A stretch of 43,473 bases of DNA from Actinomycetes bacterium (GTDB lineage: Bacteria > Actinomycetota > Actinomycetes > Nanopelagicales > Nanopelagicaceae): assembly GCA_014190015.1 (NCBI GenBank), contig BJFT01000008.1, forward strand, positions 1 through 43,473. Reading direction: 5' to 3'. The position numbers were made by a program, and so were the translations under genes. Of the stretch, positions 11,173-19,609 are shown in pieces. Every line of letters starts with the position of its first letter. Position 1 is the first letter of the stretch. Below the pieces are notes generated by a model. It made no database searches. It saw only the letters and a list, made by a program, of their open reading frames with translations, and was not told the DNA's origin.

Positions 11173-11510
11173 TTACTTTGCTGCTGCCTTCTTACGACGG
11201 CGGCGCTTTGGAGCTGCCGCAGCAGCTGCCTTCTTACGACGACGCTTTGGAGCTGCCTTCTTAGCAGCTGCCTTCTTACGACGACGCTTTGGAGCTGCCT
11301 TCTTAGCAGCTGCCTTCTTACGACGACGCTTTGGAGCTGCCTTCTTTGCAGCAGCCTTCTTACGACGACGCTTTGGAGCTGCCTTCTTTGCAGCAGCCTT
11401 CTTACGACGACGCTTTGGAGCTGCTGTTGTAGCAGCCTTCTTACGGCGACGCTTTGGAGCTGCTGATTTAGCAGCGGCCTTCTTGCGACGCTTTGGAGCA
11501 GATTTCTTAG
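11173..11510 (-). repeat. 42-bp tandem coding repeats
   Basis: Roughly eight imperfect copies of a 42-bp unit, each containing GCCTTCTTACGACGACGC followed by TTTGGAGCTGC on the plus strand. Two adjacent pairs in the middle are nearly identical, which suggests recent duplication or gene conversion. Copy number may vary between strains. Confidence 0.85.
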
Positions 11511-11532
11511 CTGCAGCCACGTATTTCTCCAT
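11173..11532 (-). CDS. Histone H1-like Ala/Lys/Arg/Pro repeat protein
   Basis: About 119 residues from the ATG at 11532. A TTG at 11559 would add nine residues (MGDGSEPFR), and the start is uncertain because no strong Shine-Dalgarno is visible. After a short MEKYVAAAKK head the whole protein is a tandem array of a roughly 14-residue unit like KKAAPKRRRKKAAA. It has essentially no acidic or hydrophobic residues, and the last unit has four arginines. The DNA repeats as a 42-bp unit. It resembles the C-terminal tails of actinobacterial HU proteins and eukaryotic H1 or chlamydial Hc1/Hc2, but has no globular DNA-binding domain. Likely a nucleoid-compacting or polyanion-binding protein (inference). 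The antisense reading of this repeat is an artefact. Confidence 0.8.
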   Translation of the reverse strand: MEKYVAAAKKSAPKRRKKAAAKSAAPKRRRKKAATTAAPKRRRKKAAAKKAAPKRRRKKAAAKKAAPKRRRKKAAAKKAAPKRRRKKAAAKKAAPKRRRKKAAAAAAPKRRRRKKAAAK

Positions 11533-11718
11533 TCGGAATGGTTCGGATCCGTCACCCAAACCTGTTCGTGGAATAGTGTGACTGGAATTGCGCCGTAATG
11601 CCAGTCAATTTGTAAAAAAAGATAGCGCGTGTCGCAAATTAATTTTCTTAATATTTTGTGCATTTCGGTAAAAAAATCGGAGTAAAAATTAAAAAAATTG
11701 GGTAATTTTTCGCCGAAA

Positions 11719-13005: not shown

Positions 13006-13011
13006 ATATTA
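13006..13011 (-). promoter_or_regulatory. -10 hexamer of leaderless MFS promoter, overlapping panB stop
   Basis: TAATAT on the minus strand is six bases before the GTG at 12999. Its first three bases are the TAA stop codon of panB. Confidence 0.5.
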
Positions 13012-13821
13012 CTTAAAGGATTGCTCCGCGCCAGGAAAACGAGAACCGGCAACATCGCTGGCCCATTCTTTGGTGGCATCGAGCATTTCGGTGCGCAGAT
13101 TGCGATACGCCTTCGCCAATTTCGGTGGATTCTTTGTAATGCCCATCAAATCCGTCCATACCAATACTTGTGAATCGCAATCAACACCGGCGCCGATTCC
13201 AACGGTTGGAATCGATAACTCCTTGGTAATTCGGGCAGCTAAATCTGCTGGCACTAACTCCAGAACTATTGCAAAGGTGCCGGCCTTTTGTAGGGCAATG
13301 GCGGCTTCAAGAATTGCATCCCCATCGGTTCGACCCTGGACTTTGTAGCCCCCCAATTGGTGAAGAGATTGTGGAGTAAATCCGAGGTGGCCCATTACTG
13401 GAATTCCGGCGGCTACTAATTTTTCAACTGTTGAAATGCGAGCGCCTTCGATCTTTACTGCCATGGCACCAGATTCTTTAAAGAAGCGAGTTGATGTAGC
13501 AAGTGCTTGTTCTGGAGATTCTTCATATGAACCAAAGGGCAGATCAGCAACAACCATTGCGCGCTGTGATCCGCGAACAACGGCGCGCACCAACGGAATC
13601 ATTTCATCGACAGTTACCGGGATTGTGTTTTCAAAACCTAAGAAGTTATTGCCAGCGCTATCGCCAACTAAGAGGACAGGGATTCCGGCTTCATCAAAAA
13701 TCGATGCCGTCATCGCTTCATAGGATGTAAGCATCGGCCATTTTTCGCCGCGCTTTTTTGCATCGGCTAAATCAGCAATCGTGACGCGACGATGCGTGGC
13801 TCCGCCATATAGGGATTCCAT
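13009..13821 (-). CDS. panB: 3-methyl-2-oxobutanoate hydroxymethyltransferase
   Basis: Makes ketopantoate from 2-oxoisovalerate using 5,10-methylene-tetrahydrofolate, the first committed step of pantothenate/CoA synthesis, in the cytoplasm. The 270 residues match the usual length. Signature segments are LTSYEAMTASIFDEAGI, LLVGDSAGN (metal/substrate site), VKIEG, GIPVMGHLGFTPQS and GIGAGVDCDSQVLVW. A clear GGAGGT Shine-Dalgarno precedes the ATG, so unlike many neighbours this transcript has a leader (13822-13898, shared with divergent nadE). No other pan genes are in the window. Confidence 0.96.
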   Translation of the reverse strand: MESLYGGATHRRVTIADLADAKKRGEKWPMLTSYEAMTASIFDEAGIPVLLVGDSAGNNFLGFENTIPVTVDEMIPLVRAVVRGSQRAMVVADLPFGSYEESPEQALATSTRFFKESGAMAVKIEGARISTVEKLVAAGIPVMGHLGFTPQSLHQLGGYKVQGRTDGDAILEAAIALQKAGTFAIVLELVPADLAARITKELSIPTVGIGAGVDCDSQVLVWTDLMGITKNPPKLAKAYRNLRTEMLDATKEWASDVAGSRFPGAEQSFK

Positions 13822-13898: not shown

Positions 13899-15560
13899 AT
13901 GAAGTTGCGCGTAGCACTCGCACAGATCAACCCAACCGTTGGTGATCTTGCTGGCAATGCTGCTCTCATTTCGAAGTACGCAAAAGAAGCGCACGCAGCA
14001 TCAGCCGATGTCGTTGTTTTTCCAGAGATGGTTTTAACTGGCTATCCAGTTGAAGATCTTGCGATGCGCGCATCATTTAGAAGCGCAAGCAAAAACGCTC
14101 TGGCACAACTTGTTTCAACTCTTGAACCATCGATTGTCTCTGTCATTGGCTATCTCGATGAATCAGTAAATGGTGCTCCGCAAAACAGAGTTGCCATTGT
14201 TTATGGTTCAAAGGTTGTAGCTACTTACACAAAGCGCCACTTGCCAAACTATGGCGTCTTTGATGAGTTTCGAAACTTTGTACCCGGCGACTCTTCCCTT
14301 GTTATCCGAGTTAAAGGCGTAGATATAGGTATCGCAATCTGCGAAGACATCTGGCACTCATTGGCAGATCTTGCAGCCCGCAAACCAGGACTCGTCCTCG
14401 TGCCAAATGGTTCGCCGTATGAGAGAAATAAAGATGATGTGCGATTAGCTCTTGTTCAAAAGCGAGCTAAAGAAGTTGGCGCACCTCTTGCATACGTCAA
14501 CATGACTGGTGGCCAAGATGATCTCGTATTTGATGGCGACACCATTGTTGTTGACGCAAAGGGTTCTGTAATTTCTCGCGCCGCACAATTTGAAGACCAG
14601 CTGCTAGTAGTTGATATCGAATCAGCCACGCAGACTTCTAAACCAGATGTCGTGATTTCAGAGAATGGCGCAGAAGCATCTGGCGCCGTTGCTCCTGCAG
14701 TTGCGATGCGAATGAGTGATCACCAAGAAATCTGGAACGCACTTGTGATGGGTCTTCGCGATTATGTCTCCAAGAACAAATTTAGATCCGTCGTGGTTGG
14801 TCTATCTGGCGGAATTGATTCAGCCCTCGTTGCAGCAATTGCTGTCGATGCACTGGGCGCGAAGTGCGTCAACGGCGTTGCGATGCCAAGTAAGTACTCA
14901 TCCGATCACTCAGTCGAAGATGCCACAGCCTTTGCTGCAAATACCGGCATTCACTTTAGAACTGTTGCTATTGAAGCAATGGTGCAATCATTTATGGAGT
15001 CCATAACTCTTAAAGCAGTGGCCGCTGAAAATATTCAAGCACGTGTTCGCGGAACAACGTTGATGGGTATTTCAAATCAAGAAGGCCACCTTGTACTTGC
15101 TACCGGAAACAAATCAGAGCTCGCAGTTGGATACTCCACTTTGTATGGCGATGCCGTCGGTGGTTTTGCTCCCATTAAAGATATTTATAAAACTGATGTA
15201 TGGGCGCTGGCACGATGGAGAAATGAGCAAGCGATTTCTCGCAATGAGGTCGCACCCATTCCTGTGCGCTCTATTGAAAAAGAACCGAGCGCGGAATTAC
15301 GTCCAGATCAAAAGGACTCTGATTCGTTGCCAGAGTATGAATTATTAGACCAACTCTTAACTCGCTACGTCGATGGCGATGAAGGATCTGCGGCGCTAAT
15401 TGCAGCAGGTTTTGATAGCGCACTAGTTATGCGCGTTATTGGTTTGGTGGATAAGGCTGAATACAAGCGCCGCCAATATCCACCTGGCACCAAGGTTTCA
15501 GCACGCGCATTTGGAAAAGATCGCCGCTTGCCGATGACTTCACGCTGGAGCGAAGCGTAA
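13899..15560 (+). CDS. nadE: Glutamine-dependent NAD+ synthetase
   Basis: A two-domain, 553-residue enzyme converting nicotinate adenine dinucleotide to NAD+ with glutamine as ammonia donor. The N-terminal nitrilase-type glutaminase domain shows its catalytic triad: Glu43 in FPEMVLTGYP, Lys112 in TKRHLPNYG and Cys148 in AICEDIW. The C-terminal synthetase domain has the ATP-pyrophosphatase P-loop SGGIDS (303-308) and the GNKSELAVGYSTLYGD segment. The start has a leaderless-type promoter. The next gene is a glutamine synthetase, which makes the co-substrate, so the pairing is metabolically sensible. Confidence 0.97.
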   Translation: MKLRVALAQINPTVGDLAGNAALISKYAKEAHAASADVVVFPEMVLTGYPVEDLAMRASFRSASKNALAQLVSTLEPSIVSVIGYLDESVNGAPQNRVAIVYGSKVVATYTKRHLPNYGVFDEFRNFVPGDSSLVIRVKGVDIGIAICEDIWHSLADLAARKPGLVLVPNGSPYERNKDDVRLALVQKRAKEVGAPLAYVNMTGGQDDLVFDGDTIVVDAKGSVISRAAQFEDQLLVVDIESATQTSKPDVVISENGAEASGAVAPAVAMRMSDHQEIWNALVMGLRDYVSKNKFRSVVVGLSGGIDSALVAAIAVDALGAKCVNGVAMPSKYSSDHSVEDATAFAANTGIHFRTVAIEAMVQSFMESITLKAVAAENIQARVRGTTLMGISNQEGHLVLATGNKSELAVGYSTLYGDAVGGFAPIKDIYKTDVWALARWRNEQAISRNEVAPIPVRSIEKEPSAELRPDQKDSDSLPEYELLDQLLTRYVDGDEGSAALIAAGFDSALVMRVIGLVDKAEYKRRQYPPGTKVSARAFGKDRRLPMTSRWSEA

Positions 15561-15564
15561 TTTC

Positions 15565-15580
15565 GTAACATTGCCGTAAC
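15565..15580 (+). promoter_or_regulatory. GTAAC-N6-GTAAC direct repeat upstream of glnA (GlnR-like box)
   Basis: Two direct GTAAC repeats with 11-bp periodicity sit just upstream of the glnA -10. Actinobacterial GlnR, an OmpR-family nitrogen regulator, binds 11-bp-spaced GTnAC/GAAAC half-sites. The match here is two half-sites only, so assignment to GlnR rather than another OmpR-type regulator is inference. Confidence 0.5.
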
Positions 15581-15590
15581 GAGGCTTTGG

Positions 15591-15596
15591 CACTAT
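15591..15596 (+). promoter_or_regulatory. -10 hexamer of leaderless glnA promoter
   Basis: CACTAT, six bases before the ATG at 15603, keeps the most conserved A2 and T6 positions. It supports the upstream ATG over the internal one at 15621. Confidence 0.45.
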
Positions 15597-15602
15597 CTGC
15601 CT

Positions 15603-16913
15603 ATGTCCCCAGAACAAGAAATGTCTAAGCAGCAAGAGTTTGTTATTCGAACCCTTGAAGAACGCAACATCCGATTCGTACGTTTGTGGTTTACAGATGT
15701 TTTGGGCTTTCTAAAATCCGTTGCAATTGCACCCGCCGAATTAGAGAACGCATTCGCCGAAGGAATTGGTTTTGACGGTTCTGCTATCGAAGGATTTGCG
15801 CGCGTAACAGAGTCAGATATGTTGGCAAAGCCAGATCCTGCAACCTTTTCAATCTTGCCATGGCGCACAGAAGCACCAGGTGCTGCGCGAATGTTCTGCG
15901 ACATCACAATGCCAGATGGTTCACCATCTCCTGCTGACCCACGAAATGTTTTACGTCGCACACTAAATAAAGCAGCGCAGATGGGTTACACCTGTTACAC
16001 GCACCCAGAAATTGAATTCTTCTTATTTAAGTCACGACCAGAAACGGGCGAAGCGCCAGTTCCCGTAGATCAAGGCGGATACTTCGATCACACACCAGCA
16101 GTTGTTGGTCATGACTTCAGACGCCAAGCAATTACGTTGCTTGAAGCAATGGGAATCTCTGTCGAATTTAGCCACCACGAAGGTGGACCAGGACAACAAG
16201 AAATTGATTTACGTGATGCAGATGCATTAAGCACTGCAGATAACATCATGACATTTCGTCATGTCATCAAAGAAGTTGCACTCGATCAAGGCTTCTTTGC
16301 ATCTTTTATGCCAAAGCCATTTACCAATCATCCTGGCAGCGGAATGCACACTCACGTCTCACTATTTAAGGGCGAAGAGAATGCTTTCTATGATGCAAAA
16401 GCTGAATTTAATTTATCCAAGATCGGTCGCTCATTTATTGCTGGCATCTTGGCACATGCTGCAGAAATAACTGCTGTTACAAATCAATGGGTTAATTCAT
16501 ACAAACGTTTACATGGCGGCGGAGAAGCACCAGCACTCGTTAATTGGGGACCTAGTGATCGTGGCGCATTAGTGCGCTTGCCGATGTATAAGCCAGGAAA
16601 AGAAAACTCAACGCGCATTGAATTTAGATCACCTGATTCTGCGTGCAATCCATACCTGGCATACGCTGTCATGATTGCAGCAGGACTTAAGGGAATTGAA
16701 AAGAATTACGAACTATCTGCTTCTAATGATTTGCAGACTCTGCCAACTAATCTCAACGAAGCTATTTTGGCGATGGAAAAGAGCGAACTCGTTCGCGAGA
16801 CATTAGGAGAGCACGTCTTCGAATACGTGTTGCGCAATAAGCGTGCTGAATGGCAGGACTATCGCCGCCAAGTAAGTGCCTACGAATTAGATAGGTACAT
16901 CCCAGTTCTTTAG
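15603..16913 (+). CDS. glnA: Glutamine synthetase, GlnA2-type
   Basis: A 436-residue type I glutamine synthetase (glutamate + ammonia + ATP to glutamine). Key motifs are the N-terminal FDGSAIEGF loop, the metal/ATP segment NHPGSGMHTHVSLF and the NSYKRLHGGGEAPALVNWG segment. The N-terminus LEERNIRFVRLWFTDVLGFLKSVAIAPAEL closely follows mycobacterial/streptomycete GlnA2. The NLYDLP adenylylation site of GlnA1 is absent (the equivalent stretch reads ASNDLQTLPTNL), so control by adenylyltransferase is unlikely. The ATG at 15603 fits a leaderless start; homologues align better from ATG 15621. The heliorhodopsin gene begins 25 bases after its stop. Confidence 0.96.
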   Translation: MSPEQEMSKQQEFVIRTLEERNIRFVRLWFTDVLGFLKSVAIAPAELENAFAEGIGFDGSAIEGFARVTESDMLAKPDPATFSILPWRTEAPGAARMFCDITMPDGSPSPADPRNVLRRTLNKAAQMGYTCYTHPEIEFFLFKSRPETGEAPVPVDQGGYFDHTPAVVGHDFRRQAITLLEAMGISVEFSHHEGGPGQQEIDLRDADALSTADNIMTFRHVIKEVALDQGFFASFMPKPFTNHPGSGMHTHVSLFKGEENAFYDAKAEFNLSKIGRSFIAGILAHAAEITAVTNQWVNSYKRLHGGGEAPALVNWGPSDRGALVRLPMYKPGKENSTRIEFRSPDSACNPYLAYAVMIAAGLKGIEKNYELSASNDLQTLPTNLNEAILAMEKSELVRETLGEHVFEYVLRNKRAEWQDYRRQVSAYELDRYIPVL

Positions 16914-16925
16914 TACTTGGTGGGA

Positions 16926-16931
16926 TAAATT
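16926..16931 (+). promoter_or_regulatory. -10 hexamer of leaderless heliorhodopsin promoter
   Basis: TAAATT lies seven bases before the ATG at 16939 in the 25-base gap after glnA, and there is no Shine-Dalgarno. The heliorhodopsin gene can therefore have its own transcript besides read-through from glnA. No strong -35 is visible. Confidence 0.55.
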
Positions 16932-16938
16932 TGTCCCT

Positions 16939-17703
16939 ATGAGCAAAGAGATCACATCAGCAGGTTTACGTCGCACCAACATCATCGCCGGTATTTTCCA
17001 CTTACTGCAAATGGCTGCAGTTCTGGCCCTCAGCAGCGATTTCTCACTACCAATTACTGCGACATACATGTCTGGTCCTCCAGGAACAACGTATGCAGAT
17101 CCAGTTGTTCTCTTTGATACTCCAATCGGATTAACAGTTGGAATCTTCTTGGGATTATCTGCACTAGCTCACTTCATTGTTGCAAGCCCACAATTTTTTC
17201 CACGATATTCAGCAGGTTTAGCGCAGAAGCGAAATTATTTCCGCTGGGTTGAATATTCAATTAGCTCATCAGTAATGATCGTGCTGATTGCACAAGTAAC
17301 TGGTGTTTCAGAGATTTCTGCAATCATCTCAATCTTTGGCGTCAATGCCTCAATGATTTTGTTCGGGTGGCTTCAAGAGAAGTACGAACAACCAGGCAAT
17401 GGGGGATGGCTTCCATTTATCTTTGGTTGCATCACAGGAATCGTTCCTTGGATTGCGTTGCTCTTTTATGTATTCGGTATTGGCGGAGCAAGTGAAACTA
17501 AGGCCCCAACATTTGTTTACATAATCGTCTTAACAATTTTCTTATTCTTTAACTCATTCGCACTCGTGCAATGGTTGCAGTACAGGAAGGTTGGAAAGTG
17601 GTCTGATTACATGCGTGGAGAGCGCACCTACATCACGCTCTCACTCATTGCTAAATCAGCACTTGCTTGGCAAATATTTGCCAACACACTAATTCCTACG
17701 TAA
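16939..17703 (+). CDS. Heliorhodopsin
   Basis: A 254-residue seven-helix retinal protein of the heliorhodopsin family, very similar in motif order to the founding 48C12 protein. Lys239 in SLIAKSALAW is the retinal Schiff-base lysine, Glu105 in FRWVEYS the counterion, and Ser235 and His21/His78 match the conserved 48C12 residues with a constant offset of two. Other hallmarks are FGVNASMILFGWLQEKY, FFNSFALVQWLQY and YMRGERTYI. The family has an inverted topology (N-terminus inside), a slow photocycle and no ion pumping by most members, and is thought to be sensory or regulatory. It lies directly after glnA. The product of the crtYc/crtYd genes at 39 kb could lead to retinal, but no blh-type cleavage gene is in the window. 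Confidence 0.97.
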   Translation: MSKEITSAGLRRTNIIAGIFHLLQMAAVLALSSDFSLPITATYMSGPPGTTYADPVVLFDTPIGLTVGIFLGLSALAHFIVASPQFFPRYSAGLAQKRNYFRWVEYSISSSVMIVLIAQVTGVSEISAIISIFGVNASMILFGWLQEKYEQPGNGGWLPFIFGCITGIVPWIALLFYVFGIGGASETKAPTFVYIIVLTIFLFFNSFALVQWLQYRKVGKWSDYMRGERTYITLSLIAKSALAWQIFANTLIPT

Positions 17704-17773: not shown

Positions 17774-17821
17774 ATGACACTTCGCAGCCTCCTCCTTAGC
17801 TGCCGTGGCGGGGCCAAATAA
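17774..17821 (+). CDS. Leucine-rich leader peptide upstream of leuA
   Basis: A 15-codon open frame, MTLRSLLLSCRGGAK, contains three consecutive leucine codons (CTC CTC CTT, 17789-17797) and a fourth earlier. It starts on a leaderless promoter and ends 72 bases before leuA. Its 3' half forms the left arm of a strong hairpin. This is the layout expected of leucine-responsive attenuation by ribosome stalling, and corresponds in position to the actinobacterial LEU element described upstream of leuA. Confidence 0.8.
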   Translation: MTLRSLLLSCRGGAK

Positions 17822-17872
17822 TCGGTCCCCTCGCCGCGGGGTTTGTCGTACCGGTTAAACAGACAAATCCCG
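17803..17872 (+). promoter_or_regulatory. leuA leader RNA with mutually exclusive hairpins (LEU element)
   Basis: Hairpin A pairs 17803-17815 with 17824-17839 (about 13 bp with small bulges; left arm inside the leader peptide). Hairpin B pairs 17837-17847 with 17862-17872 (11 bp including one G-U). They share bases 17837-17839, so they compete. Hairpin B ends nine bases before the leuA Shine-Dalgarno (AAGGAG, 17881-17886), and no U-tract follows. Control of leuA translation, or a pseudoknot as proposed for the family, is more likely than an intrinsic terminator. Confidence 0.75.
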
Positions 17873-17875
17873 TAA

Positions 17876-19609
<1,734 letters not shown>

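Follow-up and report, generated by a model that had tools for sequence, protein, structure and literature searches.

The window analysed is the whole 43,473-nt stretch of contig BJFT01000008.1 (assembly GCA_014190015.1), and the host genome is 1.25 Mb in size and 92% complete. By inference, the host is a lake bacterium of the genus Candidatus Planktophila. The genes nadE, glnA2, heliorhodopsin (HeR) and leuA follow one another in the same direction, with panB divergent from them (Table 1). HeR stands 25 nt behind glnA2; the coordinates of both genes and the gap, as given in an earlier note on this DNA, were reproduced exactly. The position of HeR, directly after a GlnA2-type glutamine synthetase (GS) and downstream of nadE, is that used by Cho et al. 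to define the GS group of HeRs. Between HeR and leuA, a leader peptide is followed by a hairpin and T tract (17829-17841), an attenuator-like arrangement that sets HeR apart from leuA. Related leader peptides, reading RSLLL.CRGG or MKLRGLLLIRRSEA, occur at many loci of the family, and an Rfam search of the HeR-leuA junction returned zero matches. Elsewhere in the window, the minus strand encodes a histone H1-like protein with lysine/alanine/proline/arginine repeats (11173-11559, KKAAPKRRRKKAAA repeats).

Table 1. Features of the nadE-glnA2-HeR-leuA locus, in window coordinates.
Feature	Position	Strand	Basis and remarks
panB	13009-13821		Divergent from nadE-glnA2-HeR-leuA
nadE, NAD+ synthetase, co-directional upstream gene	13899..15560	+	ORF; order shared by 10-kb loci of genomes with adjacent glnA2 and HeR and by Cho et al. 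(PMC9529153)
GlnR/MtrA-type box (GTnAC-N6-GTnAC) before glnA2, GTAACATTGCCGTAAC	15565..15580	+	Family-locus survey; consensus from PMC10704036
-10-like element CACTAT, leaderless-type start of glnA2	15591..15596	+	6 nt before ATG; weak consensus match; related elements at many family loci
glnA2, GlnA2-type glutamine-synthetase-like enzyme, 436 aa	15603..16913	+	ORF, profile, class-wide comparison, residue alignment; S53->A, N264->P, Tyr397 loop deleted
Imperfect palindrome over the HeR -10 element, GGGATAAATTTGTCCC	16922..16937	.	Restricted to the window clade (L013, L019, L057, L058)
-10 element TAAATT of the putative HeR leaderless promoter	16926..16931	+	7 nt before ATG; TANNNT conservation
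Heliorhodopsin (HeR), 254 aa	16939..17703	+	ORF, profiles, alignment; K239 Schiff base, E105 counterion, S235, H21, H78; R216, K217, K220, D223 in ICL3
leuA leader peptide, MTLRSLLLSCRGGAK	17774..17821	+	Sequence; related leader peptides at many family loci
leuA, right-hand neighbour of HeR	17894..19609	+	ORF; glnA2-leuA is the family gene order elsewhere without HeR

The HeR product gave full-length matches to Pfam PF18761 (332 bits against a cut-off of 26.7, 8e-100) and NCBIfam NF038020 (348 bits against a cut-off of 100, 2e-104), and 48C12 aligned to it without gaps at a two-residue offset. H21, H78, E105, S235 and K239 are all present and were invariant among 80 aligned HeRs, which bears out the earlier claim that every key HeR residue is kept. 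By profile and alignment the protein is a true heliorhodopsin, for which retinal binding, an inverted topology and a long photocycle are predicted. Searches of the 92% complete assembly for a type-1 rhodopsin and for a retinal-forming BCD dioxygenase, each run without a positive control, gave no match. Deeply different HeRs, 40-46% identical, were seen at L124-L127 (Planktophila genomes G172, G151, G227 and G207), L128 and L133; these lie at other genome positions and have Shine-Dalgarno-like upstream sequences.

The glnA2-HeR pairing and its biochemical effect have already been published for the same bacterial group, and the earlier note's account of the literature was right on this point. 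AbHeR and AbGS of strain IMCC26103 bind weakly, with a Kd of about 6 uM in the abstract and far higher Kd values given for the mutant series, and AbHeR stimulated AbGS activity in the light, both with in vitro assays and in a glnA mutant of E. coli, by a small factor of 1.1- to 1.6-fold (PMC9529153). K/D residues at AbHeR positions 216/217/220/223 affected AbGS binding (PMC9529153). At the loop positions tested by Cho et al., the window HeR carries R216, K217, K220, D223 and Q151; position 216 was Lys in 33/34 adjacent HeRs and is Arg here. The basic ICL3 residues at 216, 217 and 220, by which GS-group HeRs are recognised, were found in the window HeR and also in non-adjacent HeRs. They were about equally conserved in close HeRs located away from glnA2, and are therefore not a signature of the glnA2 pairing; a comparison of adjacent and non-adjacent HeRs yielded no adjacency-specific binding residue at 216/217/220. 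Residue frequencies at position 151 did differ between the two sets, though not uniformly, and the remaining column differences mostly tracked clades.

Compared with the GlnA2 of most of the other families listed in the class, the window GS showed 71-77% identity, and a GlnA2 match at E<=1e-80 was found in 290/297 class genomes, nearly always in single copy. The catalytic residues Asp50, Glu327, Arg339 and Arg359 are kept, as are all metal, ATP and glutamate residues checked. Ser53 is replaced by Ala and Asn264, an ammonium-site residue, by Pro; at Tyr397, a deletion has removed the 16 residues around that position. Ala53 and Pro264 recurred in GlnA2s across the class (the Pro being replaced by Ala in two of those sampled). 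The 397 loop is retained, with Trp at that position, in the GlnA2 of other families, whereas its deletion was common to all sampled members of the window family, HeR-adjacent or not. The one-per-genome distribution and the residue replacements identify the window GS as the class-wide GlnA2 paralogue. The earlier note had taken it for an ordinary glutamine synthetase, which has to be corrected: the enzyme is a GlnA2 without Asn264, and the same genome holds a separate canonical GlnA1 with S53, N264 and Y397. A third GS adjoins genes for an aldehyde dehydrogenase, an SDR, a class-I amidotransferase and an amino-acid permease (L035, own contig C5, 3602-10353), a context that probably reflects amine (polyamine/ethanolamine) utilisation. 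At L013 (G247, 256-1445), glnA2 is split into two frames by a frameshift near residue 210 with an intact HeR behind it; this may be a sequencing error or a broken enzyme beside a retained HeR.

GlnA2 of S. coelicolor (SCO2241) is a gamma-glutamylpolyamine synthetase that has the same Asn264->Pro replacement and cannot replace GS (PMC8998196). The GlnA2 identity of the HeR partner, together with this polyamine-ligating orthologue, calls into question what the light effect of HeR serves. It is possible, although we lean towards doubting it, that the partner, like S. coelicolor GlnA2, mainly ligates glutamate to polyamines (or to other amines) and that light tunes amine use or detoxification, which would alter the substrate and not the pairing and is compatible with the modulator role favoured below. 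The altered positions 53 and 264, the missing Tyr397 and the separate GlnA1 all point this way, as does the finding that glutamine does not rescue glnA2 essentiality in M. smegmatis (PMC6142876). Cho et al. pointed out this Pro in AbGS as well and allowed for another reaction; their assay supplied glutamate and ammonium only (PMC9529153). With these two substrates AbGS nevertheless released phosphate, and it partly, if slowly, rescued the E. coli glnA mutant (PMC9529153). The third GS, moreover, is the likelier dedicated amine-catabolism enzyme of the genome. We know of no polyamine assay of AbGS.

Upstream of glnA2, the exact GTAAC-N6-GTAAC box was present in 36/59 loci of the family, at a constant distance of 38-39 nt to the ATG, with near variants in the rest; its frequency in shuffles was 0.03%. 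A related GlnR-type box precedes glnA1. Published GlnR boxes match the glnA2 box (PMC10704036), and MtrA has been reported to bind GlnR boxes, to judge from a title cited in that paper. A GlnR gene was not found in the assembly (92% complete), where the only OmpR regulators found were RegX3-, MtrA- and TrcR-like, as named by sequence and neighbours, and the glnA2 box may therefore be MtrA's.

The HeR gene has TANNNT 7 nt before its ATG and no Shine-Dalgarno sequence, the pattern of leaderless genes (TANNNT at 6-7 nt from the start codon). For adjacent HeRs, TANNNT at this distance was seen in 31/31 distinct upstream sequences, a gap as short as 24 nt included, although these sequences are kin and do not amount to 31 independent trials. 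It was also seen in 24/36 non-adjacent close HeRs, most of the others having CANNNT, and distant HeRs mostly had Shine-Dalgarno-like upstream sequences in its place. The proposal that HeR has its own leaderless promoter, made in the earlier note, is thus well supported by conservation of the -10 element. A sigma-70 scan, whose counts equalled those in shuffles, did not call this promoter. The palindrome over the -10 element, perfect in L058 and weaker in L057, is a possible operator. Co-transcription of glnA2 with HeR had likewise been suggested as possible, and strand-specific nadE-GS-HeR transcripts have been reported for Planktophila/Nanopelagicus relatives (Bulzu et al. 2021, PMC8612252).

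The survey of glnA2-HeR synteny covered 251 genomes of the family, and the counts take genomes in which both genes could be placed; a few adjacent pairs may be hidden by fragmented assemblies. The conserved synteny for which the earlier note had looked to freshwater Actinobacteria held in Planktophila, where HeR was directly after glnA2 in 33/56 genomes, and failed beyond it, with 0/41 genomes in the other genera of the family (closed genomes included) and 0/28 elsewhere in the class. The 33 pairs were always co-directional, with gaps of at most 46 nt in 29 and of 412-448 nt in 4. At loci without HeR, leuA came after glnA2, either directly or with other cargo between; by sequence inspection this cargo included an antisense DinB-like ORF, a Gfo/Idh/MocA oxidoreductase and others.

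The adjacent HeRs did not form one clade (AU test on the HeR tree, p = 6.6e-4), and neither did the adjacent GlnA2s (AU test on the GlnA2 tree, p = 6e-65); single vertical inheritance of the pair was rejected on both trees. The slot behind glnA2 houses several HeR lineages, and the lack of a single HeR clade indicates that it was refilled or re-used. The HeR tree took a minimum of four label changes, against one gain and fifteen losses, whereas on the GlnA2 tree one gain and four losses equalled the five-change minimum, and the LeuA tree, for the right flank, did not force more than one origin. Given the LeuA tree and the equal costs on the GlnA2 tree, recurrent insertion of HeR and a swap of its alleles within the slot were not separable. 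The window HeR was 86% identical to the HeR of another genus (G001), while their GlnA2s were only 79% identical; compared with the adjacent Planktophila that are not of the window clade, GlnA2 identity was 84-89% and HeR identity 70-80%. This discordance implies that HeR alleles have moved.

These patterns bear on a reading in which the two genes are neighbours by position only: the junction tolerates insertions, and a mobile HeR lands or is exchanged there, bringing its own promoter and a function unrelated to GlnA2. We regard this as a serious possibility, short of probable. It would account for the leaderless -10 element at all adjacent loci, for the other cargo in the same junction, for the discordant HeR and GlnA2 identities and for binding residues that are not specific to adjacency, and it fits with reports that other HeRs have other neighbours (PMC11109279). 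It fits less well with the 33 genomes that have a co-directional HeR behind glnA2, in most of them no more than 46 nt away, with the sharing of the slot by several HeR lineages, and with the measured binding and light effect of a homologous pair.

The earlier note had also observed that the synthetase lacks the adenylylation tyrosine, and the deletion in fact takes the whole loop. Adenylylation of GSI-beta enzymes (GlnA1) is recognised by Tyr397 together with GlnE; the position is deleted in the window GlnA2, and a GlnE search of its own genome found none. Above the cut-off, glnE (PF03710) was present in 0 of 30 other Planktophila (one match was sub-threshold) and in all of the genomes from other families (31/31), and it was not found in 16/18 other family members searched. 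Without glnE, no synthetase in the Planktophila searched would be adenylylatable by GlnE. Within the family, only genus g6 (G005, G020) retains glnE, and the few kb of surrounding sequence retrieved contained no glnA2. The further argument that a synthetase without adenylylation needs another control was rejected, because GlnA2 lacks Tyr397 class-wide, HeR-adjacent or not, and glnE is absent from Planktophila; the conserved GlnR/MtrA-type box before glnA2 also speaks against it.

Where a genome listed both genes, glnE came after glnA2 and shared its strand in 14/15 cases; in the 15th the two were on different contigs. HeR here holds the place that glnE has in other families. HeR might on this basis be thought to fill the adenylyltransferase slot and to have taken over post-translational control of GS, with the contrast in glnE between Planktophila and the other families in its favour. 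The loss of glnE is nearly family-wide, however, and apparently preceded the arrival of HeR behind glnA2 in one genus; none of the 41 other family genomes has HeR in the slot, and the GlnE target Tyr397 is absent from GlnA2. Because of the family-wide loss and the missing target residue, we give this idea little weight and consider it very improbable.

The locus is a further member of the published HeR-GS group of freshwater Actinobacteria, with HeR seated in the glnA2-leuA junction. The best explanation, to which we give close to an even chance, is that HeR is a positive, light-dependent modulator of the GlnA2 encoded next to it. HeR would be expressed both from a leaderless promoter of its own, for which the sequence evidence is strong, and through transcripts that run on from nadE-glnA2, as reported for relatives. 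Anchored in the membrane, it would act on the GlnA2 dodecamer through its basic third cytoplasmic loop in a light-dependent way. This modulator role is favoured by the intactness of both genes, the retained HeR key residues, the ICL3 residues at AbGS-binding positions, the binding and light effect of Cho et al., the transcripts of Bulzu et al., the 33 co-directional pairs and the several HeR lineages in one slot. Against it stand the small published effects, binding lysines that do not track adjacency, the location of HeR elsewhere in most of the family (0/41 adjacent), an HeR promoter kept even at a 24-nt gap, a junction that takes other genes, and the lack of a detected BCD gene in the search made without a positive control. 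From the published pair we infer that HeR may bind GlnA2 and stimulate it in the light in this organism, with some importance for nitrogen use, and it is plausible that light controls GlnA2 in vivo.

A more specific version pairs the Planktophila HeR, as a light-dependent partner, with a GlnA2 of gamma-glutamylpolyamine type and not with glutamine synthesis; different HeR lineages would have been repeatedly recruited to, or exchanged in, the slot behind glnA2 held by glnE in other Actinomycetes. We consider this combination unlikely; if a polyamine-type GlnA2 is the partner, light would gate the use of polyamine nitrogen in a group that ranks among the most abundant lake bacteria. Heliorhodopsins are without an agreed function, and HeR-GS is among the few pairs with a measured partner. 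That the pairing is restricted to a genus, and that the partner is a GlnA2 paralogue whose studied Streptomyces orthologue makes no glutamine, bears on how the 2022 result is read. The gene identities and order, the promoter element and the GlnA2 type are direct observations at this locus; new here are the genus limit of the pairing, the mobility of HeR alleles, the conservation of promoter elements and the recognition of the partner as a GlnA2.

The closest known system is the AbHeR-AbGS operon of Actinobacteria bacterium IMCC26103, which shares the order nadE-GS-HeR...leuA with the window and belongs to a GS group that includes three Planktophila species (PMC9529153). The Ser->Ala and Asn->Pro replacements of the window GlnA2 are found in AbGS as well, and AbHeR is also of the 48C12 subfamily. 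The window differs in having R216 for K216 and Q151 for E151, in lacking the Gfo/Idh/MocA gene between HeR and leuA, and in a 25-nt gap where a palindrome peculiar to the clade overlies the -10 element. Cho et al. placed one promoter before nadE, whereas glnA2 and HeR of the window each have a conserved promoter-like element. In the Class 1 HeR transcripts of Ca. Planktophila and Nanopelagicus, GS, NAD+ synthetase and HeR are on one strand-specific transcript; these are metatranscriptome contigs of relatives, with unmapped promoters, and do not come from this genome (PMC8612252). S. coelicolor GlnA2 (SCO2241) is probably the same paralogue, as judged from the one-per-genome, class-wide distribution and the loss of Ser53 and Asn264, and its promoter is bound by GlnR (PMC8998196), in keeping with the GlnR-type box of the window glnA2. 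The 48C12 heliorhodopsin (PDB 6SU3, 6UH3) is of the same family as the window HeR and shares all its key residues, whereas the GS near 48C12 is further away and only 37% similar to AbGS (PMC9529153).
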